Origin: Gammaproteobacteria bacterium
Lineage (GTDB): Bacteria > Pseudomonadota > Gammaproteobacteria > Steroidobacterales > Woeseiaceae
DNA: 64,000 bases
Direction: 5' to 3'
NCBI GenBank assembly: GCA_024639825.1
Contig: JAHEGH010000007.1
Coordinates: 1 to 64,000, forward strand
This document shows positions 16,210-49,725 of the stretch, piece by piece (position 1 is the first letter of the stretch; every line of letters starts with the position of its first letter). The position numbers and the translations under genes were made by a program. Below the pieces are notes generated by a model. That model was not told the DNA's origin. It did not search any database and saw nothing but the letters and a program-made list of their open reading frames with translations.

Positions 16210-16214
16210 ATTGT

Positions 16215-16240
16215 GAGCGTAATCACGCTCTTTTCTTTCC
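16215..16240 (+). terminator. Rho-independent terminator after the FHA gene
   Basis: Stem GAGCGT / ACGCTC with an AATC loop (16215-16230) is followed by a U-rich tail (TTTTCTTT). It lies 6 bp after the FHA stop codon. Confidence 0.7.
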
Positions 16241-16286
16241 AATCGGTCTAAAGTTTGCTTCTACGACAAGGAAGCGAGACAGCACG

Positions 16287-16571: not shown

Positions 16572-16625
16572 CCTGAACCAGCACCTAAGCAACGATAACG
16601 GCCCTACTCCCACGGGCGTCGTATC

Positions 16626-16925: not shown

Positions 16926-17055
16926 CCCGTATCACAATTCCGAAACATCAAGCCCTCTTATGCCCCAGGAGTTTGTAGCATTTCGCGGACTTATATTGCA
17001 CTCTGCATACGTACTCAGATGAAATTAATTTACTCGCCACACCGGTCACAAGTTC

Positions 17056-17424: not shown

Positions 17425-17436
17425 TATTATCCGCAT

Positions 17437-17970
17437 GTGACTATGCGAATCTCATTTGAACTCGACGACAATGACCTGAAGCACTTCCGTCTCATAATGA
17501 ATGAGGCGCGCAAGGCTGCACGACGTTTGGCGCCCGAGGATATCGTTGCCGCCGCCGAGGATCTGCTGAAAGAAGTCCCGAAGTCCGAAGCGCCCGGTTT
17601 TATTGTCGAACGCCTCGAGCGGCTGCGCCTTATGATCCAGATGCTATCGGATATTGACTGGCGCCTTCCGCACCAGGACGCGACGCGCGTGCTCAACGCC
17701 CTCGCTTATTTCGCTGAACCTGAGGATCTGATTCCCGACAACATTCCCGGGTTAGGCTTTCTGGACGACGCTATCATGATCGAACTCGTCGCTCGCGAGC
17801 TGAAGCATGAAATGGATGCCTACCAGGACTTCTGCGATTACCGACAACGACTGTCGCAGACCGGTGACGGCAGCGCTGCCAGTCGCGAAGGATGGCTCGA
17901 CGCTCGCCGCAAGGAACTTCAGGCGCGAATGCACCGGCGTCGGGGCCGCGGGGGCCGGTTGCTGAGCTAA
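17437..17970 (+). CDS. YkvA-family (DUF1232) protein
   Basis: 177 residues. The start is either GTG 17437 or ATG 17443; the former is given. The hallmark DUF1232 block is YFAEPEDLIPDNIPGLGFLDDAIMIELV near residues 88-115. The rest is charged and helical with a very basic C-terminus (RMHRRRGRGGR). The protein is probably cytoplasmic or peripheral at the membrane. The function of this family is unestablished. It is downstream of the 122-residue protein and convergent with the small membrane gene at 17990. Confidence 0.72.
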   Translation: MTMRISFELDDNDLKHFRLIMNEARKAARRLAPEDIVAAAEDLLKEVPKSEAPGFIVERLERLRLMIQMLSDIDWRLPHQDATRVLNALAYFAEPEDLIPDNIPGLGFLDDAIMIELVARELKHEMDAYQDFCDYRQRLSQTGDGSAASREGWLDARRKELQARMHRRRGRGGRLLS

Positions 17971-17989
17971 GAGAGATCAGCCGCTGGTT

Positions 17990-18274
17990 CTACGGCCAGA
18001 AGTAGTACCCGGTCGCAAACAGGCCACCCCACATCGCGGCCTGCGCCCAATAGCGCCAAACCTGGTTTTTTACGAGGCTGTAGAAACTAACGCCGGAGAT
18101 CAGGGTCATACCGAGAAAGACGGACGCGCTGCGGAGCACGGGGTCAAACTCGCCTTGCAGACGCGGATACTCGTCCCCAAGGATCAGGATGACAATGATG
18201 ACGGCTGTCAGGCTGAACGTGATCGCGAAGCACGATCCGAGAATGATCAGCGTGACAACAGACAATGGACGCAT
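17990..18274 (-). CDS. Small three-helix membrane protein
   Basis: 94 residues with three hydrophobic segments: VVTLIILGSCFAITFSLTAV, VFLGMTLISGVSFYSLV and AAMWGGLFATGYYFWP. No motif identifies a function. The ATG at 18274 is the natural start. It is divergent from prc, with 48 bp between the starts. Confidence 0.65.
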   Translation of the reverse strand: MRPLSVVTLIILGSCFAITFSLTAVIIVILILGDEYPRLQGEFDPVLRSASVFLGMTLISGVSFYSLVKNQVWRYWAQAAMWGGLFATGYYFWP

Positions 18275-34575: not shown

Positions 34576-36753
34576 ATGTCACACACACAGATCTCAGACG
34601 ACACCAAGTACTTGTTCAAGCGCGACAAGACGTGGTGGGTGAAACTCGCAGTACCACGGCCGCTACGTAGCGAACTAGGCTACGATTTACGGCGATCCTT
34701 GCACACGGACGACGTCGAGGCCGCGCGGAAAGCCCGCTGGGAGGCGATTGAGGAATTTCGCTCCAGGTTCGATGAGATTCGGGCTGAACAACATGGCGGT
34801 TCGGCTTCTGCAGTCATGAATCCGGTCGATAATGCGAACGAGGCCGATGATGCGGATCAGACCATGGAGGCGCGGGACGGCGTTCGCCAGGTAGACCAAC
34901 ATATCGTCGAAATCGTCAGCGATTCCGGCGAAGGCGCACAGAAGTGCGGCCAGGTCCTGGGGCTCGTGAGCGGAAAGATGGGCAATGGCGTCTGGACCGT
35001 TGAGATTATTCCAGCCGAAATCCAGCCACCTGCCCGGGAACGTCAGGGCGCCAGCGGAATCCGTGTCCGGATGGGCTCGAAGTACATGACCAACATGGGC
35101 GACGAGGCGGATATCGTCGTCGCGTTCAATGAGCAGGTGCTTTACTCCCGCATCTCGAACCACGCCTACAGGAAAGGCACGGTCGTGTTGCTGGAAAACA
35201 TGTGGGCAAAGGATCCCGATCCGAGAATTCGCGAGCAATACAAAGAAGCACTCGCCGACTTTGAGGAACAGGGACTGGTCGTCCTCGAACTCCCCATCCA
35301 GGAAGAGTGTTTAAAGCTTGTGCCGGACCCCCGCAAGGGCAAGAACATGTTCGTGCTCGGGATGCTCTGCCGAATTTATAACCGCGATATCGACATCGCA
35401 AAGAACGAAATCAGCAAGATCTTCAAGAAGAAAAGCGAGAAGGTCATCAAGATTAACCATGACCTGTTCGATGCTGGCTACGCTTTCGCGCGCGAAAACA
35501 TCAATTACGCGTTCGAGATACCCGCTTCTAAAGAGGATCGACTGAAATCGGCGGTCGTTATGAACGGCAATACGGCGGCCGGCCTTGGGGTTATGGCCTC
35601 AGGTATCGAACTGGTCTCGATGTATCCCATCACACCGGCAACGTCGGCATCACATTACCTCGCCGAAGATTTCCACCTGACCGGTGGCTTCGTTCATCAG
35701 GCCGAAGACGAAATAGCGGCGATCGGCTTTGCGATCGGCGCGTCGTATGCGGGCAAGACCGCTTGTACGATCACCTCCGGGCCCGGCATGGCGTTGAAGA
35801 CCGAGATGATCGGTCTTGCCATCATGGCCGAGCTACCACTGGTGATCATCAACGTGCAGCGCGGTGGCCCGTCGACTGGCCTGCCGACCAAGGTCGAACA
35901 GGGTGACCTGCTCTCGGCACTCTATGGTATACCGGGCGATTCGCCGAAGATTGTTATCGCTGCCGCCACTATCTCGGAGTGCTTCCACTTCGTGGTTATG
36001 GCACGCAAACTGGCCGAATCATTCCGCACGCCGGTAATCATGCTGACCGATGCCAACCTGGGCACGGGCGTGCAACCGATAGAACGACCCGAAGTAACGG
36101 AAGAGTGGTTTTCGGCACCGCTGGACCAGTCTGACTGGGACCCGGAGGTAGCACCGTACGACTGGGACAGCGAAACCGGTTTGTCGGAACGGCCTATCCC
36201 GGGTATGCGCGGTGGCGAGTACATCCTCACCGGGCTCGCGCACAATCGTCACAGCAAGATTGCCTATGACTCGGTATCCAACCAGGAAGGCATGACCATG
36301 CGCAGCCGCAAGTTTGCGGCCATGGCGGCAACGATGAAACCTCCCGAGATACACGGTGATCCTACCGGGGACCTGCTGATTGTCGGCTGGGGTTCAACGC
36401 TGGGCGCGATCGAAGAAGCAGTCGACCGGGCAAGAGCCGATGGTCAGAAGGTGTCCTCCGTACACCTCCGGTTCCTGTCGCCGATGGAGCCCGGACTGAA
36501 AGAAATTTTTGCGGGCTTCAAGAAAGTAATGACCATCGAAATCAATTACAGCGACCTGCCCGGTTCTTCGCCGCTTATCAACCAAGAGACCCGTCGTTAC
36601 TCTCAACTGGCGCTTGTATTACGCGCACACACTTTGATGGATATCGACTGTTGGTCCATGGTACCGGGCCATCCGTTGCAACCTGGCACTATTCATAAAG
36701 TGATCGATTCACGGCTCGCAGAGATGGAAGGAGCAGAAGCATGTTCGGCTTAA
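34576..36753 (+). CDS. korA: 2-oxoacid:ferredoxin oxidoreductase alpha subunit with integrase-like N-terminus
   Basis: 725 residues if translated from ATG 34576. Residues ~105-320 resemble the gamma (ferredoxin-side) domain, starting DQHIVEIVSDSGEGAQKCG. Residues ~335-590 are the PYR/alpha domain with YPITPATSASHYLAE near 350, followed by a transketolase-C-like domain (LLIVGWGSTLGAIEEAVD). It oxidises a 2-oxoacid with CoA and reduces ferredoxin. Residues 11-70 resemble DUF6538, the N-terminal domain of tyrosine recombinases (YLFKRDKTWWVKLAVPRPLR; RSLHTDDVEAARKARW). This is either a fusion, or translation starts later at M81 or M97, but neither has a good Shine-Dalgarno. Its stop overlaps korB. 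Confidence 0.88.
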   Translation: MSHTQISDDTKYLFKRDKTWWVKLAVPRPLRSELGYDLRRSLHTDDVEAARKARWEAIEEFRSRFDEIRAEQHGGSASAVMNPVDNANEADDADQTMEARDGVRQVDQHIVEIVSDSGEGAQKCGQVLGLVSGKMGNGVWTVEIIPAEIQPPARERQGASGIRVRMGSKYMTNMGDEADIVVAFNEQVLYSRISNHAYRKGTVVLLENMWAKDPDPRIREQYKEALADFEEQGLVVLELPIQEECLKLVPDPRKGKNMFVLGMLCRIYNRDIDIAKNEISKIFKKKSEKVIKINHDLFDAGYAFARENINYAFEIPASKEDRLKSAVVMNGNTAAGLGVMASGIELVSMYPITPATSASHYLAEDFHLTGGFVHQAEDEIAAIGFAIGASYAGKTACTITSGPGMALKTEMIGLAIMAELPLVIINVQRGGPSTGLPTKVEQGDLLSALYGIPGDSPKIVIAAATISECFHFVVMARKLAESFRTPVIMLTDANLGTGVQPIERPEVTEEWFSAPLDQSDWDPEVAPYDWDSETGLSERPIPGMRGGEYILTGLAHNRHSKIAYDSVSNQEGMTMRSRKFAAMAATMKPPEIHGDPTGDLLIVGWGSTLGAIEEAVDRARADGQKVSSVHLRFLSPMEPGLKEIFAGFKKVMTIEINYSDLPGSSPLINQETRRYSQLALVLRAHTLMDIDCWSMVPGHPLQPGTIHKVIDSRLAEMEGAEACSA

Positions 36754-37694
36754 AAGGTGACTGGTCTCTCGAGGTCAAAAATCGTTATTTCACGTTAGAA
36801 GATTATAGTGGCGCAGAGCCGCGCTGGTGCACCGGTTGCGGCGACCACGGCATCCTGGCCGCGGTACATCGAGTCTGCCGGGAATCCCAGATAGAACCGG
36901 AGAAGACCGTTGCGGTGTCCGGCATCGGCTGCTCAAGCCGCCTGCCCCACTATATGAGTACCTACGGCTTCCATGGTCTGCACGGACGTGCGTTGCCCGT
37001 GGCCTGCGGCGTCAAGTCGCGCCGCCCTGACCTGGACGTCTGGGTGGCCACCGGTGACGGTGACTGCTTCTCGATCGGGGCCGCGCACTGGATCCATGCG
37101 ATGCGCTACAACATGGACATTACCCTGCTGGTATTCGACAACGGCATCTACGGCCTGACCAAGAAACAAACGTCGCCCACTACGCCGATGGACGTGCCAA
37201 CCAACACCCATCCGTCGGGCGCATTACTGCCGCCACTGAATCCACTGAGCGTGACGCTGGGTATTACCAACATCTCATTCGTCGCCCAAATCGTCGACTG
37301 GAATGCCCCGCTTCGACACGAAGTCATAAAAAAAGCACATGAGCACAAGGGAACCAGTTTCGTTCGCATTATTCAGCGTTGCCCGGTCTACGTGGAGTCA
37401 ATCGGGAAGGCACTGCAGGACGAGCCCGCTCGAATGCAGTTGCTGACGCATGAAAAAGGCGTGCAGGTTGACGATTCGGTCAAGAAGTTATTCCCGAACC
37501 ATGCGGAACACGATCCGTCCGATCTCGGCGCTGCGCGCGCGCTGGCGGAGGACAACAGTGTCTTGCCTTTGGGAATTCTTTATCACAATCCCGGTGCACC
37601 ACAGTACGACATGATGTCTTCGGTCGGCATGGATATGAGTATCGACGACAAGCTGGCCGGCATGAACCAGGCCCTCGATCACTTCGCCTTGTAA
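36741..37694 (+). CDS. korB: 2-oxoacid:ferredoxin oxidoreductase beta subunit
   Basis: 317 residues with the thiamine-diphosphate and Fe-S motifs of the family. The N-terminal cluster ligand pair is WCTGCGDHG (Cys30 and Cys33), with a further Cys in GIGCSSRLP. The TPP-Mg motif is GDGDCFSIGAAHW near residue 105, with DNGIYGLTKKQ. The substrate (2-oxoglutarate or pyruvate) is not decided by sequence. It overlaps the 3' end of korA by 13 bp, so the two subunits are co-translated. The next gene follows after 30 bp. Confidence 0.93.
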   Translation: MFGLKGDWSLEVKNRYFTLEDYSGAEPRWCTGCGDHGILAAVHRVCRESQIEPEKTVAVSGIGCSSRLPHYMSTYGFHGLHGRALPVACGVKSRRPDLDVWVATGDGDCFSIGAAHWIHAMRYNMDITLLVFDNGIYGLTKKQTSPTTPMDVPTNTHPSGALLPPLNPLSVTLGITNISFVAQIVDWNAPLRHEVIKKAHEHKGTSFVRIIQRCPVYVESIGKALQDEPARMQLLTHEKGVQVDDSVKKLFPNHAEHDPSDLGAARALAEDNSVLPLGILYHNPGAPQYDMMSSVGMDMSIDDKLAGMNQALDHFAL

Positions 37695-37724
37695 CCCATA
37701 GCTGCCATCTAGCGGACCGACATA

Positions 37725-40187
37725 ATGAATTCCGTATCTGACAAGAAGAACGACAAAGTCGACATGGGCGAATCGGAGGGTAGCGAAGGCGCCAACGTTA
37801 TCGACGTGCTCCGCCGCTTCCACTACGGCGAGCCTGTAGCGACCGCGAATACCATCAAACCCGCGGGCGCCGTCTTACCGGCACTGCTCAATCCCTACCG
37901 GGATGCGTCGGGGATTCGCTATCAATATCCGCTATACCTGGCGCCGCCCGATGGCACAGACCAGGTGACGCTGGCCAAGCCGGCCAGTGAGTATCTGCGT
38001 GATTCACTCGAAGCTCTGGCACCGGGCGACGATAACGCCAGGATCCTGAAAGATAACCTTCCATGGATAGATCGGTATATTCGCCAGAAGCTGGAAGATC
38101 CTGATCCGGTTGACGCACCCGCGCTGTTTGCAGAGGCGGCAGCAGCATTGCAGGACCAGCTGGATCTCGAGCAATCCAGTCGTGAAAAACTGGCGGCCGA
38201 TCTCGAGCGCCTTGAAGCCACCATCGCGCACGGCGGGACGTTCCTTGGTTACGGGCCGCACGCTTCACTGCACCTGATGGTGCATGCAATTCGTCACCGA
38301 CACGAACACCAGCGCGAGGCATTCAGCCAACAGATCAATAAGCACATTCATGGTCTGCGCTCCCTGCTGGAGGTCGAGAAGGCCAAGGCGGCAGAATCGA
38401 ACAAAGCCGGCGACGGCAAAAGCGCTGCCGGTGCCGCGTCTAACTACCTGGACACCGGCGCCTTGTCCGAGATGCTCGGGCAACGTGCTCATGGATCGGT
38501 GGACATGCCGGAGGAGCGGCGCGAACGCATTGCGCAGGCACTGCAAGCATTGCAGGCCTGGCAGGATGATCCGGTGCTGGTCAAATTCGTCGGCAAACTG
38601 GACGACCCATCGCTAACCGATCTGCCTGTGCTGGAAGTCGTTGAAAGCAGCAATCCATGCACGACGTCGACGGAGATTTTCATACAAGATGCCGCCGAGT
38701 TCGCACGGCTGTTCGCGGCCGCCCGAATTGCGGCGCTGGAAATTAACGATCACTACGATCCGGCCATTCATGATTCCTGGTTCGCCAGTTTTGACTGGCA
38801 GGCATTTTCTGACGAAGAAATGCAGCTGGTAACACGCGTTGTGGCGCTGGTCTCCGCTGACTATCTCGCATGCGAGGGCCTGCCGTCGTTCTCACGTTTG
38901 CTGGGGTCGCGTCTGCCCGTTCACGTGCTGACCTGGGTTCGTGCCTACGACAATCCGGCAGTACAACCCGGCGAAGGCCCGTTCGATGCCTATCGCTTTG
39001 AGTTGGCCTACTTCGGTGTGGGTCACCGCCAGGTGGTAATCGCACAATCGTCTGCCGCACGTCACGACGATCTGCTGTCAGGTTTTTTGTGCGCGCTCGA
39101 CAGTAATCGCACAAGCCTGCACCTGATCAACCGTGGCACTCAGACAAAGACGAAGAAACCACTGCTCGACGCGTGGTTCGTCGCAAGTGCAGCACTCGAG
39201 AGCCGCGCACATCCGTTCCTGCTGGTTAACCCCGATGGGGGCGATCACGCTGCGGAACGCATCCGTTTTGGCGGCAACCCGCAAGCGGACAATGACTGGC
39301 CGATCGAAACACTCGAATATCGCAGTGCCGACGGCGAGACGACCAAGATGGACCTCGCGTTCACGTTCGCCGACTACGCGTTGCTCATTCCTGCGTTGCA
39401 CGAGAATTTCCGCGTGGTACCGGTGGGTTTCGAATCGCCGGACCTCGTGACCGTCGATGAATACCTCAAGGCTGACGAAAATCTCGTCGATCGACTGGTA
39501 CCGTTCGTCTGGGGTATCGACGAAGACGATATCCTCACAAGACTGGTGGTATCTCGTGCCCTGGTGTTCGCATGCCGTGATCGCCTGAACTACTGGCACA
39601 CGCTTCAGGAGCTCGCCGGAATCCAGAATTTCTACGTCGAAGAAGCTATCGACCGGATTATTGAAGAACAACAGGCAGCGATCGACGCCGAGCGCGAACA
39701 ACTCAAGAAAGAGCACGAGGAACAACTGGAAAGCGCCCGTTCGGAGGCCGCCGGTGAGGCCATGGGACAACTCGTCGATGTATTGATGGGTGCCGATCTC
39801 TCCGGAATGCTCGCGAGCGGCAGTCAGATTGCCAGCATGCCCGCAAGCGCACCCGCAGCGACTCAGGAACCAGCCGAATCCGCCCCTGAAGCCGAGGCCC
39901 CGGCCGAAGTCGAGGAAGAGGACGAGGATGAGTTGAGTTTCGACGAGCCCTGGCTCGACACTGCGATGTGTACAACCTGCGACGACTGCATGGGCGTCAA
40001 CAAGATGATGTTCGCTTACAACGACGATAAGCAAGCGATCATCAAGGACCCGAGAGCAGGAACGTTTGCCGATCTCGTGGCAGCCGCCGAAATCTGCCCC
40101 GCAAAATGTATTCACCCAGGCAAACCCCTGGATCCGAATGAGGCGGGACTGGACGAATTAATCGCCCGCGCCGAACCGTTCAACTGA
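37725..40187 (+). CDS. Large PFOR-related accessory protein with C-terminal Fe-S domain
   Basis: 820 residues, not assigned to a known family. Part of it resembles the TPP-domain half of pyruvate:ferredoxin oxidoreductase (LPVHVLTWVRAYDN; SAARHDDLLSGFLCAL), but no Mg-TPP motif is found. It shares a LQELAGI-plus-coiled-coil tail with the giant protein at 41029 (YWHTLQELAGI versus NWRTLQELAGI). The C-terminal ~80 residues bear five Cys: Cys749, 752 and 755 (CTTCDDC), then Cys791 and 795 (CPAKC), suggesting one 4Fe-4S cluster. An acidic linker lies between. Its stop overlaps the rnfB ATG. An electron-transfer link from KorAB to RnfB is inferred. Confidence 0.6.
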   Translation: MNSVSDKKNDKVDMGESEGSEGANVIDVLRRFHYGEPVATANTIKPAGAVLPALLNPYRDASGIRYQYPLYLAPPDGTDQVTLAKPASEYLRDSLEALAPGDDNARILKDNLPWIDRYIRQKLEDPDPVDAPALFAEAAAALQDQLDLEQSSREKLAADLERLEATIAHGGTFLGYGPHASLHLMVHAIRHRHEHQREAFSQQINKHIHGLRSLLEVEKAKAAESNKAGDGKSAAGAASNYLDTGALSEMLGQRAHGSVDMPEERRERIAQALQALQAWQDDPVLVKFVGKLDDPSLTDLPVLEVVESSNPCTTSTEIFIQDAAEFARLFAAARIAALEINDHYDPAIHDSWFASFDWQAFSDEEMQLVTRVVALVSADYLACEGLPSFSRLLGSRLPVHVLTWVRAYDNPAVQPGEGPFDAYRFELAYFGVGHRQVVIAQSSAARHDDLLSGFLCALDSNRTSLHLINRGTQTKTKKPLLDAWFVASAALESRAHPFLLVNPDGGDHAAERIRFGGNPQADNDWPIETLEYRSADGETTKMDLAFTFADYALLIPALHENFRVVPVGFESPDLVTVDEYLKADENLVDRLVPFVWGIDEDDILTRLVVSRALVFACRDRLNYWHTLQELAGIQNFYVEEAIDRIIEEQQAAIDAEREQLKKEHEEQLESARSEAAGEAMGQLVDVLMGADLSGMLASGSQIASMPASAPAATQEPAESAPEAEAPAEVEEEDEDELSFDEPWLDTAMCTTCDDCMGVNKMMFAYNDDKQAIIKDPRAGTFADLVAAAEICPAKCIHPGKPLDPNEAGLDELIARAEPFN

Positions 40188-41029
40188 TGAATAATCTGCT
40201 GCTTGCGCCGGCCATCATGGTTGGGATCGGCTTGTTTTTCGGTGCGGTCCTGGCGATTGCGCAGCGTTTTTTGAAGGTCGACGAAGATCCGCGCATCGAA
40301 GCAACCAACGAGTTGCTGCCAGGCACCAACTGTGGTGCCTGCGGCCAGCCCGGTTGTCTGCCGTTCGCTGAAAAACTGGTAAGCGGCGAAGTCGACCCGG
40401 GTCAGTGCACGGTCAGCACCGACGAAAATATTGAACAGATTGCTGAGTATCTCCAGGTCGACGCCGGCCGCGCCGAGAAACTGGTCGCGCGTTTGCGATG
40501 CGGTGGCGGTGGCCTGCAGGCACACCAGATCGCAGAGTATCGCGGCTTCGAGGGCTGTCGCGCCGCGGCGGTCGTGTCGGGCGGCGGCAAGGGTTGCGCC
40601 TGGGGCTGTCTCGGCCTGGCGGACTGCGAGCGTGCTTGCACGTTTGACGCAATTCACATGAATGCGAACGGGCTTCCCCAGGTTGATACGGAAAAATGCC
40701 GCGCTTGTCCTGATTGTGTCGCGGCCTGTCCCAAGGATCTCTTCGAACTCGTACCGCTTAACCAAAATCTGTATGTGCAATGCAATATTCCATTGGCCGG
40801 CGAAGCTGCAACCCAACTCTGCGCAGTGGCTTGCGACGCCTGTGGCAAGTGTGCGGCCGATGCAGCTCCGGGACTGATAACCATGGAAGGAAACCTCCCT
40901 GTCATCGACTATTCCTCAGGCGGCGAGCCCAGGCCCGACGCTGTCTTTCGTTGTGCGACCCGATCGATCGTCTGGCTCGAGCGTGAGCAGTTCCAGAATC
41001 AGGAATCCAGAAAGGCGGGGGGTGTCTGA
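40187..41029 (+). CDS. rnfB: Rnf electron-transport complex subunit RnfB
   Basis: 280 residues. N-terminal membrane helix (LLLAPAIMVGIGLFFGAVLAIA), then the Fe-S domain NCGACGQPGCLPFAEKL, followed by a CAWGCLGLADCERACTF cluster, then two ferredoxin-type motifs (CRACPDCVAACP and CAVACDACGKCAAD). RnfB takes electrons from ferredoxin and passes them to the membrane subunits. The length and extra cluster near the C-terminus resemble the longer clostridial/Rnf2 form. The ATG overlaps the preceding stop; the stop overlaps the next gene's ATG. Confidence 0.95.
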   Translation: MNNLLLAPAIMVGIGLFFGAVLAIAQRFLKVDEDPRIEATNELLPGTNCGACGQPGCLPFAEKLVSGEVDPGQCTVSTDENIEQIAEYLQVDAGRAEKLVARLRCGGGGLQAHQIAEYRGFEGCRAAAVVSGGGKGCAWGCLGLADCERACTFDAIHMNANGLPQVDTEKCRACPDCVAACPKDLFELVPLNQNLYVQCNIPLAGEAATQLCAVACDACGKCAADAAPGLITMEGNLPVIDYSSGGEPRPDAVFRCATRSIVWLEREQFQNQESRKAGGV

Positions 41030-44000
41030 TGGCTGGTATGCGCAGTATCGCGATTCACTGGTACCGCAAGGTGTTCGGAGCACCTGCAGGATCGGACATT
41101 CGGGAAGAAGGTCTGGACACCGTGCTTGACGGTCATTCCGCGGTCTCGATTTCCGAAGCCGCCATCGCCAGCCGTGCCGTACATGCCGCGGAAGGACCCC
41201 GGGGGATGGTCGCGGCGGCCACGGGTCTGGCATTGGCCGGCCGGCGCGCGACTGCATTCCTGTCCGGCACAGATATCGCTGCAACACAGGATCTCCTGAC
41301 TTCGGCAGCTGGCAAACACGCACCGCTGGTCCTGCACCTCGCGACACGCGCGGTCGCTGCGCACGGGGCCACGCTGGGTAGCGGCCACGAAAGTGTCCAT
41401 CTAAGCGCAGACACCGGCTTCTTCATGTTGTTTGCCGCCAATGTTCAGGAGGCCGTCGACTTCACTTACATCGCCAGGCGCGTTTCTGAAGAATCTCTGG
41501 TTCCCGGCATGGTCATCATGGACGGCGAGCAGACCGCCCTCGCCCCGCAGGACACGCGACTCTTGTCGCCGGCGCAAGTCAGTGGTTTTCTGGGCTCGGC
41601 GCATACACAAATTGAATCGCCGACGGCCGCGCAAAAACTTCTGTTTGGCGAGACCCGGCGCCGCGTTGTGGCCTGGCACGATCTCGACGAACCCGCGCTG
41701 ACTGGCGCACTGTTCGAACAGGACAGCTTCGCGCTCGGCGCCTACGCTCGCCGACCATTTTTCGATGCTTTTGTCGAGGAGTCGCTGGAGAAGTCCTTCG
41801 AGCAATTTTCACGCAAGGCCGGTCGACACTACGAAGCCGTCTCACGCTACCGACTGGACGACGCAAAAACTGTACTGCTGGCGCAAGGTTCCGCGATCGA
41901 AACAGCAAGAGTTGCTGCTGACTTCCTTCGCAAAGAACACAAGACAAAAGTGGGCGTACTGGGCATCCATACACTGCGACCCTTCCCTGCCGCCGCGATC
42001 AACGAAGCGCTTGCAGGTTGTGATCAGGTCTTGGTCCTCGAACGCATGGACGCACCCCTGGCCGGCGAACCACCGCTTAGCCGTGAAGTTCGCGCAAGCC
42101 TGGGCCGCTTGGGAAGCAAGCGGCGCCCGACCTGTTCCCCGGTCATCTACGGTGTCGGCGGATTGCCACTGCGTGTTTCCGACCTCGTCGCACTTGGTAC
42201 CCGTGCGGACCCGTCTTTGGCTACGCCTGTCTACCTGGGCGTGGCATTCGATGATACGTCAGGAGAACAACCCAAACGCGAGGTTCTTCTCGATGCATTG
42301 CGACGCGCCTATCCCAACGCGGCCGAGCTCGGTATTCGCGCTCCGGCTGGTGCTTCTGCGCTGCAAAAAGACGATACGCTAACGCTTGCGATACACCGAG
42401 TTACCGGTGACAACAACAAGGGATTGCTCAGCGTAGCGGGAGCCGTGCTGCAACAACTCGAAGAGGGTCGGATACGAAGCCGGCCAGCGATTTCCTGGGA
42501 CCACTGGTCCGACACGCGCGTCGACTGGCTAACCCAGGGCGATGATTCGCTGCAGGACCCCGGCGACGAACTCGTTGCCGACGTCGCGCTGTTTGTCGCG
42601 CGCGGTGAAATCCTGCTCGGCAAGGATAAGAAGGCCTTTGCTGTCCCGCTCGAGGCTGACAATGCCGATGTGCCAGAGGCCCTGCTGGGTGGATTGTTTG
42701 GCGTATTGCAGGGCGCCGGACTCATCGATCACAAAGCACGGCAAATCCTTGCCGCGCGCAGACGTCTGCTGGAGAGCGTAGATTCAAATCGCCGCGACCA
42801 GATGATGGCTGCATTCCAGTCAGGCCTCGAACAGGTTGCCGAGATCGAAGTCCATTCGACCCAGGCGGCGCATGCCGAGGATCGCTGGGACGGTGAAGCT
42901 CCGGCGGCTGTCCGTCATCTTGGTCGCGACGACGATCACTTCGCGAGCCTGTCCCGCTTCTGGGATCAGACAGGGGTGCTTTACCGTGACGGCCAGGGCA
43001 ACCGGCTGACCGCAGACCCGTTCCTCGCAACCGGCACGATGCCGCCTCTGAGCTCTACTTTTCACGACACCAGCGGCGCGCGCAGTCATTTGCCCACATT
43101 CGATCCGGCTCTGTGCACAGGCTGTGGCAAATGCTGGACACACTGCCCTGACAGTGCGATCGGAGTGGTCTCATCCAATCCAGCCGCGCTTTTAGATGCC
43201 GGTATCAACCGGTCGGGTGCTGATGCCGTGCGGCAGGTATCGAGTAAGCTCGCATCACGCATGATCTCGAGTAACAGGAAAAGCGAAGAGGTCGCGCCAA
43301 CATTCGGCGAAATGCTCGACGACGCCTACGCCTGGCTCAAGGACAAGATGCCGCTGCCCGACGATCGCAAGCAGGCGATCGAAGAGGGAATCGGTAAAAT
43401 TCGCGCTGAGTTTGGCGCGCTACCGGTGGCTGTCACCAAGCCCTTTTTCCATGATGCCGAGGCGCTCAAGAAAGACAGCGCAGAATTGCTGTCCGTCGTC
43501 ATAAATCCGGAAGCCTGCAAGTCCTGCGGCCTCTGCGTCAGCAACTGCGAGCCTGAAGCACTGCGCCGTACCGAACAGGATGCAGCTGTGCTGGGCAAGG
43601 CACGCGAACTCTGGTCTATCTTCTCGTCCACACCCGACACGGCCTCAGAAACACTGGAACGCGTTGCCCAGGACCCCGACATTGGCGCCATGGCGGCCAT
43701 CCTGTTGTCTCGCTATTGCCAGTTCGCGCTACCCGGCGGAGATCCGGCGGAAGCGGGATCCGGTGAAAAAATAGCTGTCCGGCTGGCTTTGTCAGCAACG
43801 GAGTTCCACCAGCAGCCTATTGTGCAGCGATTTGCGAAAACACTGGCGGAGGCCGGTGAGTCAGTATCGTCGCTAATCAATGAAACGCTTTCCGGTACGC
43901 TCGCGGTCGAGGACCTCGACGCGGTTACCGAAAAACTGAGAAGCACCACGAGCCCGCGTGTCGATCTGCAGGACCTGGCGAACAGCGTCGGGGATGCAGC

Positions 44001-45294
44001 GAGTGATCATTCGATCGATACTGACTATCTCCTCAGGCTGATCGACCTGTCGAGCCGCATCAACGCCTCACACCACCGGCTCGTTGCGGGAAAACACGGC
44101 CTTGGGCGTGCACGCTACGGTCTCGCCGTCGCCGGCGGCAGTACCGCAGCCTGGGCCGGCGCATTTCCACACAACCCGTTCCAGGCACCGGTGCTCATCG
44201 ATATGAGCGGCGACGCGGCGCAATTATCCGCCGGCCTGATCGAAGGTCACCTGGACGAAACCGCGGAATTGGTTCGCCTGCTGCGCCTCGCGCGCCTCGA
44301 GGTCGATCAACCGGATGGGGCCGACTGGAAGCGTGAAGCACTTGCAGGCCTGCGCTGGCAGGACCTGAGCGCCGAAGAAGCGGCGCTTTGTCCGCCGCTC
44401 ATACTGATCGGCAGCGATGAAATGCTTGCCGGACAGGGACTGAGTCAACTGATCTGGCTTCTGAACTCGGGTCTCCCGGTCAAGGTGCTCGTACTGAGCG
44501 CGCTCGACTTCGGGCTTCTCGACGAACCAACCAACAATCCAAGAGCAAGTCTCGGCCTGCTCGCCCTGGCGCAGCGCAACGCGTTCGTCGCGCAGACCTC
44601 CGTTGCCGATTCCGCCCACCTTGGCGAGAGCATGCTGCGGGCGCTCCGCCACGAAGGCCCTGCCCTGGTCCAGGTATATGCCCCCAGCCCTGAGCGGCAC
44701 GGTTTTGCCCCACGGCAGACGCTCGTGCAGGCGCAGCTCGCAATTCGCTGCCGCGCGTTGCCATTATTTCGTTATGACCCTAATGCCGAGGGAGTATTCG
44801 GGTCGCGAATGTCTCTGGACGGCAACCCTGACGATGGCGAGCAGAGCGTTTCGCTGGCTGACTGGGCGCTGGGACAAAAGCGCTTTGCATCGAGTTTCCA
44901 GACACTGGCGGATGATGTAGCTGCAACGGTCCCGTTGCACGAATGGCTGCAACTGGACGCGAAGAACCGCAAAGGACAAACCCCCTGCATCACCACACAC
45001 GATGACGATGTAGAGCAGCGCCATGCCGTGTCGGCAGAGCTTGCCACCGCGGCCGGAGAGTGTCTGGCAAATTGGCGAACCCTGCAGGAACTCGCCGGCA
45101 TCGTGACTCCCTTTACGGAGCGGCTGGAGCAGGAAATTCGTGCCAGCGTCGCCGCCGAACACCAGGCGGATCTGGACGCGCAGAAGAAAGCCTCTGACGC
45201 CGAAATTCGAGAGATCCAGGAAAAGACACAGTCCGAGATCGCAAGCAAGATCCGCAGTCGCCTCCTGCAGCTGGCGTCGCGGAAGCGGGACTGA
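41029..45294 (+). CDS. Giant degenerate PFOR-like Fe-S protein in the rnf operon
   Basis: 1421 residues. The domain order mirrors pyruvate:ferredoxin oxidoreductase. An alpha-like N-terminus (AVSISEAAIASRAVHAAEG) and a domain-II-like part (TVLLAQGSAIETARVAADFL) are followed by a gamma-like part. Two 4Fe-4S motifs come next, Cys696/699/702/706 (CTGCGKCWTHCP) and Cys830/833/836/840 (CKSCGLCVSNCEP). The C-terminal half resembles the TPP domain. The Mg-TPP motif (usually GDGWAYDIG) is replaced by GSDEMLAGQGL at ~1128, so thiamine-based catalysis is probably lost. It is wedged between rnfB and rnfC. A scaffold or electron relay is more likely than an enzyme; this is inference. Confidence 0.65.
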   Translation: MAGMRSIAIHWYRKVFGAPAGSDIREEGLDTVLDGHSAVSISEAAIASRAVHAAEGPRGMVAAATGLALAGRRATAFLSGTDIAATQDLLTSAAGKHAPLVLHLATRAVAAHGATLGSGHESVHLSADTGFFMLFAANVQEAVDFTYIARRVSEESLVPGMVIMDGEQTALAPQDTRLLSPAQVSGFLGSAHTQIESPTAAQKLLFGETRRRVVAWHDLDEPALTGALFEQDSFALGAYARRPFFDAFVEESLEKSFEQFSRKAGRHYEAVSRYRLDDAKTVLLAQGSAIETARVAADFLRKEHKTKVGVLGIHTLRPFPAAAINEALAGCDQVLVLERMDAPLAGEPPLSREVRASLGRLGSKRRPTCSPVIYGVGGLPLRVSDLVALGTRADPSLATPVYLGVAFDDTSGEQPKREVLLDALRRAYPNAAELGIRAPAGASALQKDDTLTLAIHRVTGDNNKGLLSVAGAVLQQLEEGRIRSRPAISWDHWSDTRVDWLTQGDDSLQDPGDELVADVALFVARGEILLGKDKKAFAVPLEADNADVPEALLGGLFGVLQGAGLIDHKARQILAARRRLLESVDSNRRDQMMAAFQSGLEQVAEIEVHSTQAAHAEDRWDGEAPAAVRHLGRDDDHFASLSRFWDQTGVLYRDGQGNRLTADPFLATGTMPPLSSTFHDTSGARSHLPTFDPALCTGCGKCWTHCPDSAIGVVSSNPAALLDAGINRSGADAVRQVSSKLASRMISSNRKSEEVAPTFGEMLDDAYAWLKDKMPLPDDRKQAIEEGIGKIRAEFGALPVAVTKPFFHDAEALKKDSAELLSVVINPEACKSCGLCVSNCEPEALRRTEQDAAVLGKARELWSIFSSTPDTASETLERVAQDPDIGAMAAILLSRYCQFALPGGDPAEAGSGEKIAVRLALSATEFHQQPIVQRFAKTLAEAGESVSSLINETLSGTLAVEDLDAVTEKLRSTTSPRVDLQDLANSVGDAASDHSIDTDYLLRLIDLSSRINASHHRLVAGKHGLGRARYGLAVAGGSTAAWAGAFPHNPFQAPVLIDMSGDAAQLSAGLIEGHLDETAELVRLLRLARLEVDQPDGADWKREALAGLRWQDLSAEEAALCPPLILIGSDEMLAGQGLSQLIWLLNSGLPVKVLVLSALDFGLLDEPTNNPRASLGLLALAQRNAFVAQTSVADSAHLGESMLRALRHEGPALVQVYAPSPERHGFAPRQTLVQAQLAIRCRALPLFRYDPNAEGVFGSRMSLDGNPDDGEQSVSLADWALGQKRFASSFQTLADDVAATVPLHEWLQLDAKNRKGQTPCITTHDDDVEQRHAVSAELATAAGECLANWRTLQELAGIVTPFTERLEQEIRASVAAEHQADLDAQKKASDAEIREIQEKTQSEIASKIRSRLLQLASRKRD

Positions 45295-45298
45295 TGCG

Positions 45299-46639
45299 AT
45301 GAAGGCATTTCGTCGACTGCGCCGCAACTTTGAGCACGGAGTCCATCCGGCTCATCACAAGCAGCAGACTGAGAATCTGCCGATTCAACGCGTGCCCTTC
45401 GGCAAGGACTATGTCATGCCGCTCGGCCAGCACATAGGCGTTCCGGCCCGGGCCATTGTTACTGCGGGCGAGCGCGTGCGGCGTGGTCAAATGATCGCGG
45501 AGCCAGGTGGTTTCGTCTCAACGAGCCTCCACAGCCCGGTGACGGGGACGGTCAAAGAGATTGGTAATTTTCGTGGCGTCGACGGTCGCTTTGCACCGGC
45601 GATAGCGATCGAAGCCGACCCCTTTGCGACACAACAGGTCGATGCCGGCGCTGCCGTGGACTGGCAGGCGTTATCGACAGAGAAATTCATCGAAGCCGTA
45701 CAAATGGCGGGCATCGTCGGCATGGGCGGTGCAGCCTTTCCGGCCCATGTGAAGCTGTCGGTGCCCGACGGCGTCAGGATTCGTTCTCTCCTGATCAACG
45801 GTGCCGAATGCGAGCCCTATCTGACCACCGATCACCGGCTCATGCTCGAGCGACCGGAGGCGCTGCTCGAAGGCGCCGAAATCATGCGCCAGAAGCTCGG
45901 CGCCGAGGAATCGGTTATAGGTATCGAAGCCAATAAACCCGATGCGATCGCCATTGTTCAAAAACACATCCAGCCGGGTACCCCGGTGCGCGTCGTGCCT
46001 TTGAAGGTCAAGTATCCGCAAGGCGCCGAGAAGATGATGATCAAGAGCGTCTTCGATGTGGAAGTACCGGCCGGGCAACTGCCACGTGACGTTGAGGTTA
46101 ACGTCAACAACGTCGGCACAATTGTCGCAATTGCGGATTATTTTCTGCGCGGCATACCGTTGATCGAACGGGTCGTGACGGTTGCCGGTCCCGGCGTCAC
46201 CTACCCCGCCAACCTGATCGTGCCACTTGGGACACCCGTGCGTGACGTCGTGAAGTTTTGCGGCGGCCTCAAGCCGGGCACGCGAGAGATCATCATGGGC
46301 GGGCCAATGATGGGCCGGCCAATCGCCAGTCTCGATGTACCCATCCTGAAGGGTTGCTCCGGCGTACTGGTGTTTACCGAAGAACAGACGGCCAGGCGCA
46401 AGGAATATCCGTGCATCAGTTGCGGACGCTGCCTGGAAGCTTGTCCGTATTTTCTGAACCCGTCCCGGCTTGCGCGCCTCTCCAAGTCACGTATGTTCGA
46501 CGAGATGAAAGCGTACAACGTCTTTGACTGTGTCGAATGTGGCTGTTGCACTTTTTCCTGTCCGTCCAATATCCCGATCGTGCAGCTCATCCGCACGGCA
46601 AAAGACGACCTGACCCATCGCAAGGAGCCCGACGCATGA
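45299..46639 (+). CDS. rnfC: Rnf complex subunit RnfC
   Basis: 446 residues from ATG 45299. N-terminal biotin-lipoyl-like region (GQHIGVPARAIVTAGERVRRGQ), a Rossmann-like nucleotide domain with GMGGAAFPAHVKL for FMN/NADH binding, and two 4Fe-4S motifs CISCGRCLEACPYFLNP and CVECGCCTFSCPSNIP. It binds NAD(H) on the cytoplasmic side. Its size is close to clostridial RnfC and lacks the long repetitive E. coli C-terminus. Starts 5 bp after the giant gene's stop; stop overlaps rnfD (ATGA). Confidence 0.95.
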   Translation: MKAFRRLRRNFEHGVHPAHHKQQTENLPIQRVPFGKDYVMPLGQHIGVPARAIVTAGERVRRGQMIAEPGGFVSTSLHSPVTGTVKEIGNFRGVDGRFAPAIAIEADPFATQQVDAGAAVDWQALSTEKFIEAVQMAGIVGMGGAAFPAHVKLSVPDGVRIRSLLINGAECEPYLTTDHRLMLERPEALLEGAEIMRQKLGAEESVIGIEANKPDAIAIVQKHIQPGTPVRVVPLKVKYPQGAEKMMIKSVFDVEVPAGQLPRDVEVNVNNVGTIVAIADYFLRGIPLIERVVTVAGPGVTYPANLIVPLGTPVRDVVKFCGGLKPGTREIIMGGPMMGRPIASLDVPILKGCSGVLVFTEEQTARRKEYPCISCGRCLEACPYFLNPSRLARLSKSRMFDEMKAYNVFDCVECGCCTFSCPSNIPIVQLIRTAKDDLTHRKEPDA

Positions 46640-47655
46640 AGAAAAGCGATCCGGACCTCCTGCTCTTTCACGCGCCGCTGTTGCGCCAGGGCATGACGAC
46701 GCCGAAGGTGATGCGCGATGTGCTGATTGCTCTCGCACCGGCGACGGCCGCATCGATGTGGTTCTTCGGACTCAGTGCCATCCTGATTCTCGGCGCATGT
46801 ATTGGCGGCGCGGTTGCGGCGGAATGGTTATTCGCCGACAGGCAGGCTCGCAGCGATTCGCTGCGTGACGCCAGCGGCATATTGACCGGACTCCTGCTCG
46901 GCCTCACGCTACCGCCGGGCCTGCCGCTGTGGATGGCATTCCTTGGCGGCTTCGTCGGCATCGCACTTGGCAAGGTCATCTGGGGCGGGCTGGGTCACAA
47001 CCTGTTCAACCCTGCGTTGCTCGGTCGTGCATTTTTGCTCGCCACATTTCCGATCGCCATGACAACCTGGGTACCCGCTGTCACCGAAGGCGGTTTCCTG
47101 CAGATTTATCCGGGTAACCTTGCACTGCCATTCATGCAGGCGCAGATCGACGCCATGAGTTCCGCCACGCCACTGGGCATGTTGAAATTCGAAAGCGAAG
47201 TCACCCCGCTTACCGACCTGATGTTGGGCAATGTCAGCGGCTCGCTTGGCGAAACCAGTGGACTGCTGCTTCTGCTCGGAGGCGTTTATCTTTGGCTCCG
47301 GCGCGACCTCGACTGGCGCATTCCGGTGAGCATCCTGCTTACCGTGGTTGTTTTTTCAGCCGTTCTGGGCCTCTTTGATGCGGCACGTTTCCCGACACCG
47401 CTGTTCTCGGTCTTCTCGGGCGGCCTGCTGCTCGGGGCTATTTACATGGCAACCGATCCCGTTACTTCCCCGGTTACACCGAAGGGTACGTGGATCTTCG
47501 GCATCGGCACGGGCGTCCTTGTCATGTTGATCCGCGTATTCGGAGGACTCCCGGAAGGTGTGATGTACGCGATCCTGCTGATGAATGCGGCGACGCCGCT
47601 GATCGATCGGTACACGCAGCCCAGGGTGTTTGGTCGCGGGGGCGACACCAAATGA
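46636..47655 (+). CDS. rnfD: Rnf complex subunit RnfD
   Basis: 339 residues from ATG 46636, which overlaps the rnfC stop by four bases. Multiple transmembrane helices (ILGACIGGAVAAEWLF; GILTGLLLGLTLPPGLPLWM; LLLLLGGVYLWL). A covalent flavin attachment motif of the S/T-x-A-T type occurs at SSATPLGML. It is an integral NqrB-like subunit that helps transfer ions. Its stop overlaps the rnfG ATG. Confidence 0.94.
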   Translation: MKKSDPDLLLFHAPLLRQGMTTPKVMRDVLIALAPATAASMWFFGLSAILILGACIGGAVAAEWLFADRQARSDSLRDASGILTGLLLGLTLPPGLPLWMAFLGGFVGIALGKVIWGGLGHNLFNPALLGRAFLLATFPIAMTTWVPAVTEGGFLQIYPGNLALPFMQAQIDAMSSATPLGMLKFESEVTPLTDLMLGNVSGSLGETSGLLLLLGGVYLWLRRDLDWRIPVSILLTVVVFSAVLGLFDAARFPTPLFSVFSGGLLLGAIYMATDPVTSPVTPKGTWIFGIGTGVLVMLIRVFGGLPEGVMYAILLMNAATPLIDRYTQPRVFGRGGDTK

Positions 47656-48335
47656 CCACCGACACAATCAAGCAGGCGGCACCCCCCAGCTCGCTGCGTC
47701 TCGTCCTAACGCTGGCTATCGCAGGGCTGATATCGGGTATCGCAATCATCGGCATCTACGAATCGACGCTGCCGACCATTACCGCGAACAAGGCTCGCGA
47801 ACTACGCGAAGCGGTTTTCAAAGTTCTGCCTGGTGTCAGCCAGATGCAGGCCCTGGTTTACCGGGACGGCGAACTGATCACCGTCGAGAAACCGGATAAG
47901 GACGAGCCGGTTATCTACGGAGGCTATGACGAAGCGCACGAATTCGTGGGCTATGCAATGCCGGCGGCGGGTCCCGGGTTCCAGGACACCATCGCCATCC
48001 TGTACGGCTACAAGCCTGGGGAAAAACAGGTTGTCGGCATGGAAGTACTCGAGAGTCGGGAAACGCCCGGTCTGGGTGACAAAATCTACAAAGATGCCGT
48101 ATGGGTTGGCGGTTTCAGCGCGTTGTCCGTCGAACCCGAAATCGTCGCCGTGAAGAAAGGCACCAAGAGTAAGCCCAATGAGATCGACGCAATTACCGGC
48201 GCAACGATCTCTTCGAAGGCCGTTGTTCGGATCATCAACGAAGCGCACACCGCGTGGACGGGAAAATTGCCGCCGGCGGGATCTGAGCCACCGCTCCGAG
48301 AGACAGAAACAGCGAGCACCGAGGCAGGACAATGA
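47652..48335 (+). CDS. rnfG: Rnf complex subunit RnfG
   Basis: 227 residues from ATG 47652 (ATGA overlap with rnfD). One N-terminal transmembrane helix (LVLTLAIAGLISGIAIIGIY) and a periplasmic FMN-binding domain with the flavinylation motif DAITGATISSKAVV near residue 185; the Thr is the covalent attachment site. It is flavinylated by ApbE, which is not encoded in this window. The C-terminus overlaps rnfE. Confidence 0.94.
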   Translation: MTTDTIKQAAPPSSLRLVLTLAIAGLISGIAIIGIYESTLPTITANKARELREAVFKVLPGVSQMQALVYRDGELITVEKPDKDEPVIYGGYDEAHEFVGYAMPAAGPGFQDTIAILYGYKPGEKQVVGMEVLESRETPGLGDKIYKDAVWVGGFSALSVEPEIVAVKKGTKSKPNEIDAITGATISSKAVVRIINEAHTAWTGKLPPAGSEPPLRETETASTEAGQ

Positions 48336-48976
48336 AGAAAAACGAGTCCTACGAAGAATTCATCAAGGGCGTCTGGCGCGACAACCCGGTGTTCGCCCAG
48401 GTGCTCGGCATGTGTCCAATGCTTGCCGTCACCAACTCCGCAATTAACGCAGTCGCGATGGGCATGGCAACACTATTCGTCCTGGTGGGATCGAGCTTCC
48501 TGGTATCCAGTTTCCGCAACTGGATTCCCAAGCAGGTGCGCATATCCTGCTTCATTATCATTATCGCGACGTTTGTCACTATTGCGGACTACACGCTACT
48601 GGCGCTCGTGCCGAAAGTGCACAAGGAACTGGGCGCGTTCATTCCACTCATCGTTGCGAACTGCCTGATTTTGGGTCGACAGGAGGCGTTTGCCTCTCGA
48701 TACCCGACGCGACTCGCGGTGATGGATGCCATCGGTATGGCCGTGGGCTTCCTGGTGGCGCTCCTGTCGCTCGGTATCGTCCGCGAAATCCTTGGAGACG
48801 GGGCGCTTTTCGGGGTCAAGCTCTTCAGTGAAAATTTCGAACCCTGGGTCATCATGATTCTGCCACCCGGCGGCTTTCTCACGCTCGGAGTCATCCTGCT
48901 GTTCTTCAACTGGTTCAAGTTCAAGAAAGATGAGTTCTTAGAAGACGTCGCTGAAGCAGAGAGGAGCGGTAGCTGA
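48332..48976 (+). CDS. rnfE: Rnf complex subunit RnfE
   Basis: 214 residues, an integral membrane subunit related to RnfA and NqrD. It carries the conserved LGMCPMLAVTNSAINA and ANCLILGRQEA segments whose Cys residues ligate the intramembrane [2Fe-2S] shared with RnfA. The ATG overlaps the rnfG stop, and its stop overlaps the rnfA start by one base. Confidence 0.95.
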   Translation: MKKNESYEEFIKGVWRDNPVFAQVLGMCPMLAVTNSAINAVAMGMATLFVLVGSSFLVSSFRNWIPKQVRISCFIIIIATFVTIADYTLLALVPKVHKELGAFIPLIVANCLILGRQEAFASRYPTRLAVMDAIGMAVGFLVALLSLGIVREILGDGALFGVKLFSENFEPWVIMILPPGGFLTLGVILLFFNWFKFKKDEFLEDVAEAERSGS

Positions 48977-49554
48977 TGGAAAACCTCCTCTGGATATTTG
49001 TGAGCGCCGTTCTGGTCAACAACTTCGTGCTGACCTATTTTCTCGGGCTGTGTCCGTTTCTTGGCGTATCCAACTCGCTTGAGACCTCATTCCGGCTCGG
49101 GCTTGCCACTACCTTCGTGATGTTGGTGACGGCCATTTGCGCGTGGATCCTCAACACCTATATCCTGATTCACGCGCCGTACCTCAGGCTGATTTGCTTC
49201 ATCGTGGTCATTGCCAGCACCGTGCAGTTCATCGAGATGCTGATCAAGAAACTGAGCCCTGCGCTCTTTCGTGCGATGGGCATTTTCTTGCCGTTGATTA
49301 CGACAAACTGCGCGATCCTGGGTCTCGCAATCTTTGCCACCAACCGCGGCTATGGCTTCTGGGAAGGCATCATCTATGCGCTCGGCGCCGGCGTTGGCTT
49401 CACGCTCGCGCTGGTGCTGCTTGCGGGACTGCGAGAGGAGTCTGAGTTATCCAGCATACCCAAGCTGATCCAGGGTACGGCGATGAACCTGATCATTGCC
49501 GGTATACTGTCTATGGCTTTTATGGGGTTTGCCGGACTGTTCAGTACGACCTGA
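48976..49554 (+). CDS. rnfA: Rnf complex subunit RnfA
   Basis: 192 residues. Membrane subunit with LGLCPFLGVSNSLETS and TTNCAILGLAIF, the Cys motifs matching those of RnfE. Paired inverted-topology RnfA/RnfE form the ion-conducting core. Its position at the end of the operon, after rnfE, differs from E. coli (rnfA first) and resembles clostridial rnf operons, where A follows E. A small cysteine-rich gene follows 15 bp later. Confidence 0.95.
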   Translation: MENLLWIFVSAVLVNNFVLTYFLGLCPFLGVSNSLETSFRLGLATTFVMLVTAICAWILNTYILIHAPYLRLICFIVVIASTVQFIEMLIKKLSPALFRAMGIFLPLITTNCAILGLAIFATNRGYGFWEGIIYALGAGVGFTLALVLLAGLREESELSSIPKLIQGTAMNLIIAGILSMAFMGFAGLFSTT

Positions 49555-49569
49555 GGAGTACTTGCTGGA

Positions 49570-49725
49570 ATGCTGACGACCTATATTATTCCGCTTCTCG
49601 CCATTGTCGCCCTGTGCGCATTCTGGGCGATCTTCCAGACCTGGCTTTTCAAGCACGATCCGGACGCGGAACGGCGGTCCGTCAAATGCGGTGGTTGCGG
49701 TCGTAAAGAGGAATGCAACCGCTAG
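49570..49725 (+). CDS. Tiny Cys-rich membrane protein, possible Rnf maturation factor
   Basis: 51 residues from ATG 49570, with GAGGAG about 11 nt upstream. A single membrane helix (IIPLLAIVALCAFWAIFQTWLF) is followed by a charged linker and a Cys-containing tail KCGGCGRKEECNR. The layout (one TM, then a short Cys-rich tail) resembles NqrM, the maturation factor for the related Na+-NQR, and FeoB-associated Cys-rich proteins. It is the next gene after rnfA on the same strand with a plausible ribosome-binding site, so a role in Fe-S loading of Rnf is inferred. Confidence 0.55.
   Translation: MLTTYIIPLLAIVALCAFWAIFQTWLFKHDPDAERRSVKCGGCGRKEECNR

Follow-up and report, generated by a model that had tools for sequence, protein, structure and literature searches.

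How are low-potential electrons passed between central carbon metabolism and ion-pumping complexes in aerobic and sulfur-oxidising bacteria, and is free ferredoxin needed for this transfer? The question is raised in concrete form by a locus of a gammaproteobacterium of the family Woeseiaceae (order Steroidobacterales; GenBank assembly GCA_024639825.1). The window analysed is a stretch of 64,000 nucleotides, positions 1 to 64,000 of the forward strand of contig JAHEGH010000007.1. Positions 34576-49725 carry eleven plus-strand open reading frames (ORFs), all intact and with no internal stop, in the order korA, korB, a gene for an 820-aa protein, rnfB, a gene for a 1421-aa protein, rnfC, rnfD, rnfG, rnfE, rnfA and a 51-aa ORF, exactly the array listed in the initial annotation of the stretch. 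This operon probably encodes a membrane-anchored 2-oxoglutarate:ferredoxin oxidoreductase (OGOR), in which KorAB would be the catalyst and a catalytically dead adaptor, shaped like a pyruvate:ferredoxin oxidoreductase (PFOR), would link KorAB to the Rnf complex.

Both giant proteins descend from PFOR; the initial annotation had called them PFOR-like. The 1421-aa protein (41029..45294, plus strand) resembles PFOR in Pfam, NCBIfam and PDB sequence comparisons and in fold, and the 820-aa protein (37725..40187, plus strand) is connected to it by BLASTP (E 1e-17) and to a longer PFOR-like family by profile comparison. The 1421-aa protein is a catalytically degenerate PFOR. It consists of a PorA-like part (residues 52-389), two [4Fe-4S] motifs (Cys 696-706 and 830-840) and a PorB-like C-terminal part with neither an intact thiamine pyrophosphate (TPP) motif nor the cysteines of the proximal cluster; the PFOR fold of domains V-VI is present, and the NCBIfam PFOR equivalog cut-off is missed (136.7 vs 911.35 bits). 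Residues were counted in an alignment of 87 giants, with 29 rows of this kor type and 58 rows of a longer form described below. All eight domain-V dicluster cysteines, the ligands of the medial and distal [4Fe-4S] clusters, are kept in every one of the 29 kor-type giants. The PFOR catalytic Glu, the full GDG signature and the TPP-site Asn are each found in 0/29, as is any of the four proximal-cluster cysteines; the GDG position reads SDE in the window's protein. Eight further full-coverage loci from genomes of the class (L150, L152-L158; loci and genomes are designated by L and G numbers) have the same residue pattern (8/8). The roles of the catalytic Glu, TPP site and proximal cluster are those that we take them to have in PFOR structures, with positions partly aligned to 6cin. 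The 820-aa protein is a degenerate copy of the C-terminal 900 aa or so of a PFOR-ferredoxin fusion: positions 55-840 of its family align with positions 740-1655 of the long form (hhalign, probability 100, E 2.8e-91). The PorA half is missing, as are the dicluster cysteines and the TPP motif, and the ferredoxin domain is kept (Cys 749, 752, 755 and 791). These four cysteines are present in 24/24 aligned 820-type proteins, and the family profile matches Ferredoxin I (1dax). The ferredoxin lost from the 1421-aa protein is thus kept in the 820-aa protein, and the dicluster lost from the latter is kept in the former, so that the pair preserves the relay of the long form and neither member keeps the active site. 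Such complementarity is the strongest argument from sequence for an electron wire.

KorAB has retained its active residues. KorA (34576..36753, plus strand, 725 aa) is the alpha subunit of a 2-oxoacid:acceptor oxidoreductase, with gamma and alpha parts fused; it scores 502.7 bits on TIGR03710, above the cut-off of 482.75, and its best PDB match is 6n2n_A, the OGOR of Magnetococcus marinus (E 2.6e-84). KorB (36741..37694, plus strand, 317 aa) is the TPP-binding beta subunit with the proximal [4Fe-4S] cluster, and its best match is the partner chain 6n2n_B (E 7.3e-52). Its score on TIGR02177 (229.6 bits) is below the cut-off of 261.9, and it would be better described as a subunit that works like that of an OGOR than as a certified family member. 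Its four cluster cysteines and the GDGD/N TPP residues are kept in 14/14 KorB rows, the window's included. KorA also bears a DUF6538 segment fused at its N-terminus (residues 12-69, E 1e-9; window positions 34576-34800). DUF6538 is usual in phage-type integrases. Within the window's clade the segment is conserved, with 41-65 identities over 75 residues in each of seven relatives; the KorA proteins of L058, L059, L063, L064, L067 and L071 do not have it. In L155, from a single-contig genome, korA is split over several ORFs, which may reflect a genuine split of the gene or its decay.

The order korB, 820-aa gene, rnfB, giant gene and further rnf genes recurs in other genomes, and the arrangement is therefore more than chance. 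Loci were sorted by hand from alignment-table rows, with pieces and class loci placed according to the reference nearest to them; for the class loci this placement was later checked by residues. Among loci with room around 42 distinct homologues of the 1421-aa type, rnfB lies upstream in 35/38, an 820-type gene in 29/32 and korB in 27/30, and rnfD lies downstream in 20/24. An 820-like ORF follows korB in 29 of the 30 loci with room, L055 being the sole true miss. Profile searches found a stand-alone 820-like ORF in 10/97 genomes of the order and in 13/369 genomes of the class (E 1e-80; 15 matches, two of them pieces of the long form), or 21 genomes in total, two being common to both sets. In 18 of these 21, referred to below as kor-rnf genomes, the 820-type gene is accompanied by rnfB and a giant; G049, G067 and G307 have it with korAB and with no Rnf genes in the stretch examined. 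No rnf gene beyond rnfB was seen in the stretch examined in G193, G412 and G436. Synteny is broken in L055, L057, L060, L062 and L068 (Thiotrichaceae or Thiomargarita) and in L059 (an endosymbiont of Escarpia spicata). The dedicated KorAB-Rnf module proposed at the outset is borne out by this recurrent linkage, and homologues of the giants are not found mostly away from korAB and rnf. The co-occurrence holds for most loci, although rnfCDGEA is not adjacent to the giants of the tubeworm symbiont and of the Thiomargarita type, and in three genomes korAB and the 820-type gene occur without Rnf genes in the stretch examined. Glutamate-synthase-like genes, presumably Nfn-like, stand directly upstream of korA in G049 and G067. 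Glutamate-synthase/Nfn-like genes adjoin korAB and the 820-type gene, without Rnf, at L045 (9475-11868) and L160 (1-1392). L159 has korAB followed by a divergent 820-like protein of 972 aa, with its strongest profile stretch at 62-660 and the four ferredoxin cysteines aligning at its end; no Rnf genes were seen there in the stretch examined.

A third set of homologues (L038-L044, L072-L126), typically 1630-1690 aa long, combines PorA, the two clusters, a PorB part in which the TPP signature and the proximal cysteines are present, and a ferredoxin domain at the C-terminus. The eight dicluster cysteines are kept in 58/58 rows, and the catalytic Glu, the GDG signature, the Asn and all four proximal cysteines in 57/58 each, the misses being truncated or split rows (L118, L126, L111). 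The ferredoxin cysteines are visible in 52/58 rows, the other six being cut or split. This long form is apparently an active PFOR, and it also belongs to Rnf operons: rnfD lies downstream in 43 of 44 distinct loci with room, and rnfB is on the same strand in all 32 loci with room on both sides. Its neighbourhood includes an 820-like ORF in 0/47 loci, korB in 1/45, sucCD in 0/44 and mdh in 0/36. The exception to the link with rnf is L043, with no rnf genes within the 19 kb examined, a stretch that contains a run of N. The organisms include Bacteroidota, Planctomycetota, Acidobacteriota, Myxococcota, Calditrichota, Hydrogenedentota and Pseudomonadota, among them Methylotuvimicrobium buryatense 5G, Thiocapsa imhoffii and Flavobacteriaceae. 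In L042 a different korAB pair (15416-17433; 30-33% identity) is located upstream of the cluster of long-form giant and Rnf genes. A tree of the giants, built by a quick method from 69 of the 87 rows and rooted arbitrarily, separates the kor type from the long form by a branch with a support of 100; three giants from one family of the window's order (L033-L035) occupy a deep branch of their own.

From the operon, the ancestry of the giants, the loss of catalytic residues, the retention of relay cysteines, the intact KorAB, the synteny and the tricarboxylic acid (TCA) cycle neighbours seen in relatives, we infer an electron path, an order of hops, a physical complex, a substrate and a direction. 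KorAB would do the chemistry, interconverting 2-oxoglutarate + CoA and succinyl-CoA + CO2 + 2 low-potential electrons. The proposed relay would connect the KorB cluster first with the ferredoxin domain carried by the 820-aa protein and next with the pair of [4Fe-4S] clusters in the 1421-aa protein; from there it would continue through RnfB and the other Rnf subunits to NAD(H), with electron transfer coupled to ion movement. The adaptor would have originated from an active PFOR-ferredoxin fusion, such as that still present in many Rnf operons. Upon recruitment of KorAB, its catalytic site may have decayed in two complementary copies, leaving the PFOR body as an electron wire.

The substrate is suggested by the neighbours of the operon in relatives. 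The giant and rnfC are separated by sucC and sucD in L063, L071, L152, L155, L156 and L157, and in L059 these two genes come directly after the giant; mdh follows rnfA in L056, L058, L156, L157 and G129 (L170); and a NuoF-like gene is found upstream of korA in L059, L063 and L152-L157 (profiled in L059 and L156). In G312, G129, G197, G313 and G412 the NuoF-like gene is preceded by genes for a flavoprotein and a small Fe-S protein, which in the four other genomes are 65-86% and 69-87% identical, respectively, to those of G197. The pairs of G197 and G129, when profiled, consisted of FrdA/TfrA-like proteins (below the models' cut-offs) and 2Fe-2S/4Fe-4S proteins. Together, sucCD, mdh and the fumarate-reductase/NuoF-like genes cover the greater part of the C4 half of the TCA cycle, making 2-oxoglutarate and succinyl-CoA the likely substrate pair of KorAB. 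The window's own operon and those of its nearest kin are without these neighbours. In L155 a LysR regulator closest to CbbR (17212-18132; 243.5 bits, cut-off 450) is encoded on the opposite strand, between the NuoF-like gene and korA, hinting at a link to the regulation of the Calvin cycle.

The direction of flow given in the initial annotation, from 2-oxoacid oxidation straight into Rnf, does not stand as it was put. The sucCD, mdh and fumarate-reductase/NuoF-like genes are no less compatible with a reductive synthesis of 2-oxoglutarate in which Rnf runs in reverse, and the presence of an NADH-linked fumarate reductase would fit this direction. Rnf would then draw on NADH and the ion gradient to drive electrons uphill to KorAB. 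Where relatives carry the extended operon, we slightly favour the reductive direction over the oxidative one. In its fullest form, this proposal would have the two dead paralogues acting as a pseudo-PFOR that hard-wires KorAB to Rnf, giving an ion-gradient-driven 2-oxoglutarate synthase that fixes CO2 onto succinyl-CoA without free ferredoxin, and the relatives' operon would encode most of a reductive C4 branch (mdh, NADH-linked fumarate reductase, succinyl-CoA ligase and KorAB) together with its own electron pump; we regard this full form as less likely than not. The strongest competitor is the oxidative alternative, in which KorAB oxidises 2-oxoglutarate and the giants pass the electrons to Rnf for NADH formation and ion pumping, an energy-conserving alternative to 2-oxoglutarate dehydrogenase (OGDH). 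It falls somewhat short of an even chance. The reaction is generally understood to be downhill thermodynamically, sucCD could harvest ATP from succinyl-CoA, and OGDH E1 is missing in 4/18 kor-rnf genomes: G197, G313 and G412, of one genus, and G429, with a weak match only (G049, with korAB and the 820-type gene and no Rnf nearby, has two sub-cut-off pieces). However, OGDH E1 is above cut-off in the other 14, the window's genome included, and KorAB as a plain replacement for OGDH was rejected as a general rule on this count. The FrdA/TfrA-like and NuoF-like partners, moreover, resemble an NADH-linked fumarate reductase and so suit the reductive branch, and RuBisCO is clear in 12/18 kor-rnf genomes, with one further weak match, vs 12/97 genomes of the order.

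Several observations weigh against the proposed membrane-wired OGOR. Structurally, Foldseek gives the 1421-aa giant modest TM-scores against the PFOR rows (0.43-0.46, root-mean-square deviation 7.6-11.8), the predicted structure of the 820-aa protein is poor (pLDDT 62.8) with a weak fold match (best E 2.6e-3), and the middle Asp of GDG persists in 23/29 kor-type giants. The linkage counts come from loci that were found via the giants or the 820 profile, many of them related, and thus measure linkage rather than independent events. In the stretches examined, rnfCDGEA is not beside the giant in L059, L060, L065, L068 and L154, and rnfB is not beside it in L055, L057 (checked over 2.5 kb upstream) and L062. 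On the metabolic side, no sucCD, mdh or NuoF-like genes were found to flank the operon in L028-L030, which belong to the window's own genus. The TfrA-like protein, matched in G197, G129 and G429, was unmatched at E 1e-60 in the other eight of 11 genomes searched (G000, G021, G006, G035, G003, G018, G443 and G425). ATP-citrate lyase (PF16114) was found in 0/24 genomes in a search that had no working positive control. Lastly, the 14 genomes with OGDH E1 imply that completing the TCA cycle does not by itself require the module.

Three further explanations concern the role of the giants. An unlikely one is that KorAB and the 820-aa protein form a free-standing module that supplies NAD(P) enzymes or soluble carriers and is tied to Rnf by genomic convenience only. 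The Rnf-free loci of G049 and G067, beside glutamate-synthase/Nfn-like genes, would fit such a module, as would L059, in which a NuoF-like gene adjoins korAB and there is no rnfCDGEA; the association with rnfB and a giant in 18/21 genomes with a stand-alone 820 argues against it. We consider it rather less probable still that the giants are an assembly or maturation scaffold that builds or stabilises Rnf or KorAB and carries no electrons. Degenerate enzyme folds are generally known to turn often into scaffolds, and long helices are predicted in the 820-aa protein, but a scaffold would not account well for the retention of eight relay cysteines in every 1421-type protein and four ferredoxin cysteines in every 820-type protein while the catalytic residues were lost. 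Separate, still active oxidoreductases for other substrates, merely sharing the operon, were rejected and are highly improbable: the size and conservation of the giants, the retained PFOR fold and the persistent middle Asp speak for activity, but none of the 29 kor-type giants retains the full TPP signature, the catalytic Glu or any proximal-cluster cysteine, and the 820-aa protein has no PorA half. The suggestion that the giants are relays or scaffolds rather than enzymes is supported, and the electron-carrying adaptor between KorAB and Rnf is preferred here.

The remaining genes, all on the plus strand, agree with a single compact operon. All six Rnf subunit genes are present, with RnfA, B, C, D and E exceeding their family cut-offs and RnfG slightly below: rnfB (40187..41029, 280 aa; TIGR01944, 81 bits vs 68.7), rnfC (45299..46639, 446 aa; TIGR01945, 519.6 vs 245.95, scored on a longer ORF from 45140 before the start codon was chosen), rnfD (46636..47655, 339 aa; TIGR01946, 340 vs 207.05, longer ORF from 46537 scored), rnfG (47652..48335, 227 aa; TIGR01947, 95.9 vs 102, longer ORF from 47490 scored), rnfE (48332..48976, 214 aa; TIGR01948, 226.8 vs 213.4) and rnfA (48976..49554, 192 aa; TIGR01943, 238.4 vs 229.3). 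The last ORF (49570..49725) encodes a Cys-rich protein of 51 aa with one hydrophobic segment (CGGCG...C). Homologues follow rnfA in many kor-type loci; a Pfam scan found no family above cut-off, and we take the protein to resemble NqrM-type maturation factors in design. Seven of the ten junctions overlap and the largest gap is 30 bp. The overlaps are of 13 bp (korA/korB), 1 bp (820/rnfB, rnfB/1421 and rnfE/rnfA) and 4 bp (rnfC/rnfD, rnfD/rnfG and rnfG/rnfE), and the gaps of 30 bp (korB/820), 4 bp (1421/rnfC) and 15 bp (rnfA/51-aa ORF). The overlaps named in the initial annotation (rnfC/D, rnfD/G and rnfE/A) are correct; its statement that all junctions from 40187 onwards overlap or abut holds for most of them, but not for the last two gaps. 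Judging from the profiled genes, the flanks look unrelated to the operon: polyphosphate kinase 2, an aldolase-like ORF, DNA polymerase III gamma/tau and recR upstream on the minus strand, and DUF3667, a CLC channel and others downstream.

In the main text of openly licensed papers we found neither these giants nor an rnf operon enclosing a PFOR described, and the same is true of the PFOR-Rnf unit formed by the apparently active long form. As a concrete case of predicted direct wiring, the operon belongs to a natural series of before and after: in several phyla Rnf operons include a PFOR that is apparently active, and in operons like this one KorAB seems to have taken over catalysis from a decayed PFOR. 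If the prediction is true, central carbon metabolism and the membrane would be joined by an electron wire that is built in, which is unusual. If the reductive direction is also true, the operon would account for how a reductive TCA carboxylation could be powered in Gammaproteobacteria with RuBisCO, a problem already posed for tubeworm symbionts (PMC6315080).

Published work on a tubeworm symbiont proposes that Rnf may help a reverse TCA cycle, alongside an Hdr-Flx complex and an OGOR of four subunits, and reports that the Escarpia laminata symbiont has a dimeric korAB next to TCA genes (PMC6315080). The korAB genes and a 'PFOR-like' gene of a tubeworm symbiont both fall under H2S limitation (PMC11636981), which would fit co-regulation if these are the same genes as in this operon. 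In Thiomargarita, Rnf and korAB are noted separately (PMC4853749, PMC4914600). L059, from another Escarpia symbiont, resembles the tubeworm systems in holding korAB, the 820-type gene, rnfB, the giant and sucCD, whereas the parts available of those accounts (PMC6315080, PMC11636981) describe no degenerate PFOR site, 820 protein or PFOR-containing rnf operon. The M. marinus OGOR (PDB 6n2n) is the closest PDB match of both KorA and KorB, and its TPP and KorB cluster residues are kept; the window's KorAB differs in sharing an operon with Rnf and two degenerate PFOR proteins, and its KorA in bearing the DUF6538 segment. The 1421-aa protein has the PorA-like, domain-V dicluster and PorB-like parts and the fold of the PFORs of Desulfovibrio africanus (1b0p) and Moorella (6cin), but in the window's giants the catalytic Glu, TPP signature and proximal cluster are gone and the enzyme is split over two proteins. 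Finally, the window has all six subunit genes of the Rnf complex (RnfABCDGE) and differs from it in having a PFOR-derived gene between rnfB and rnfC.

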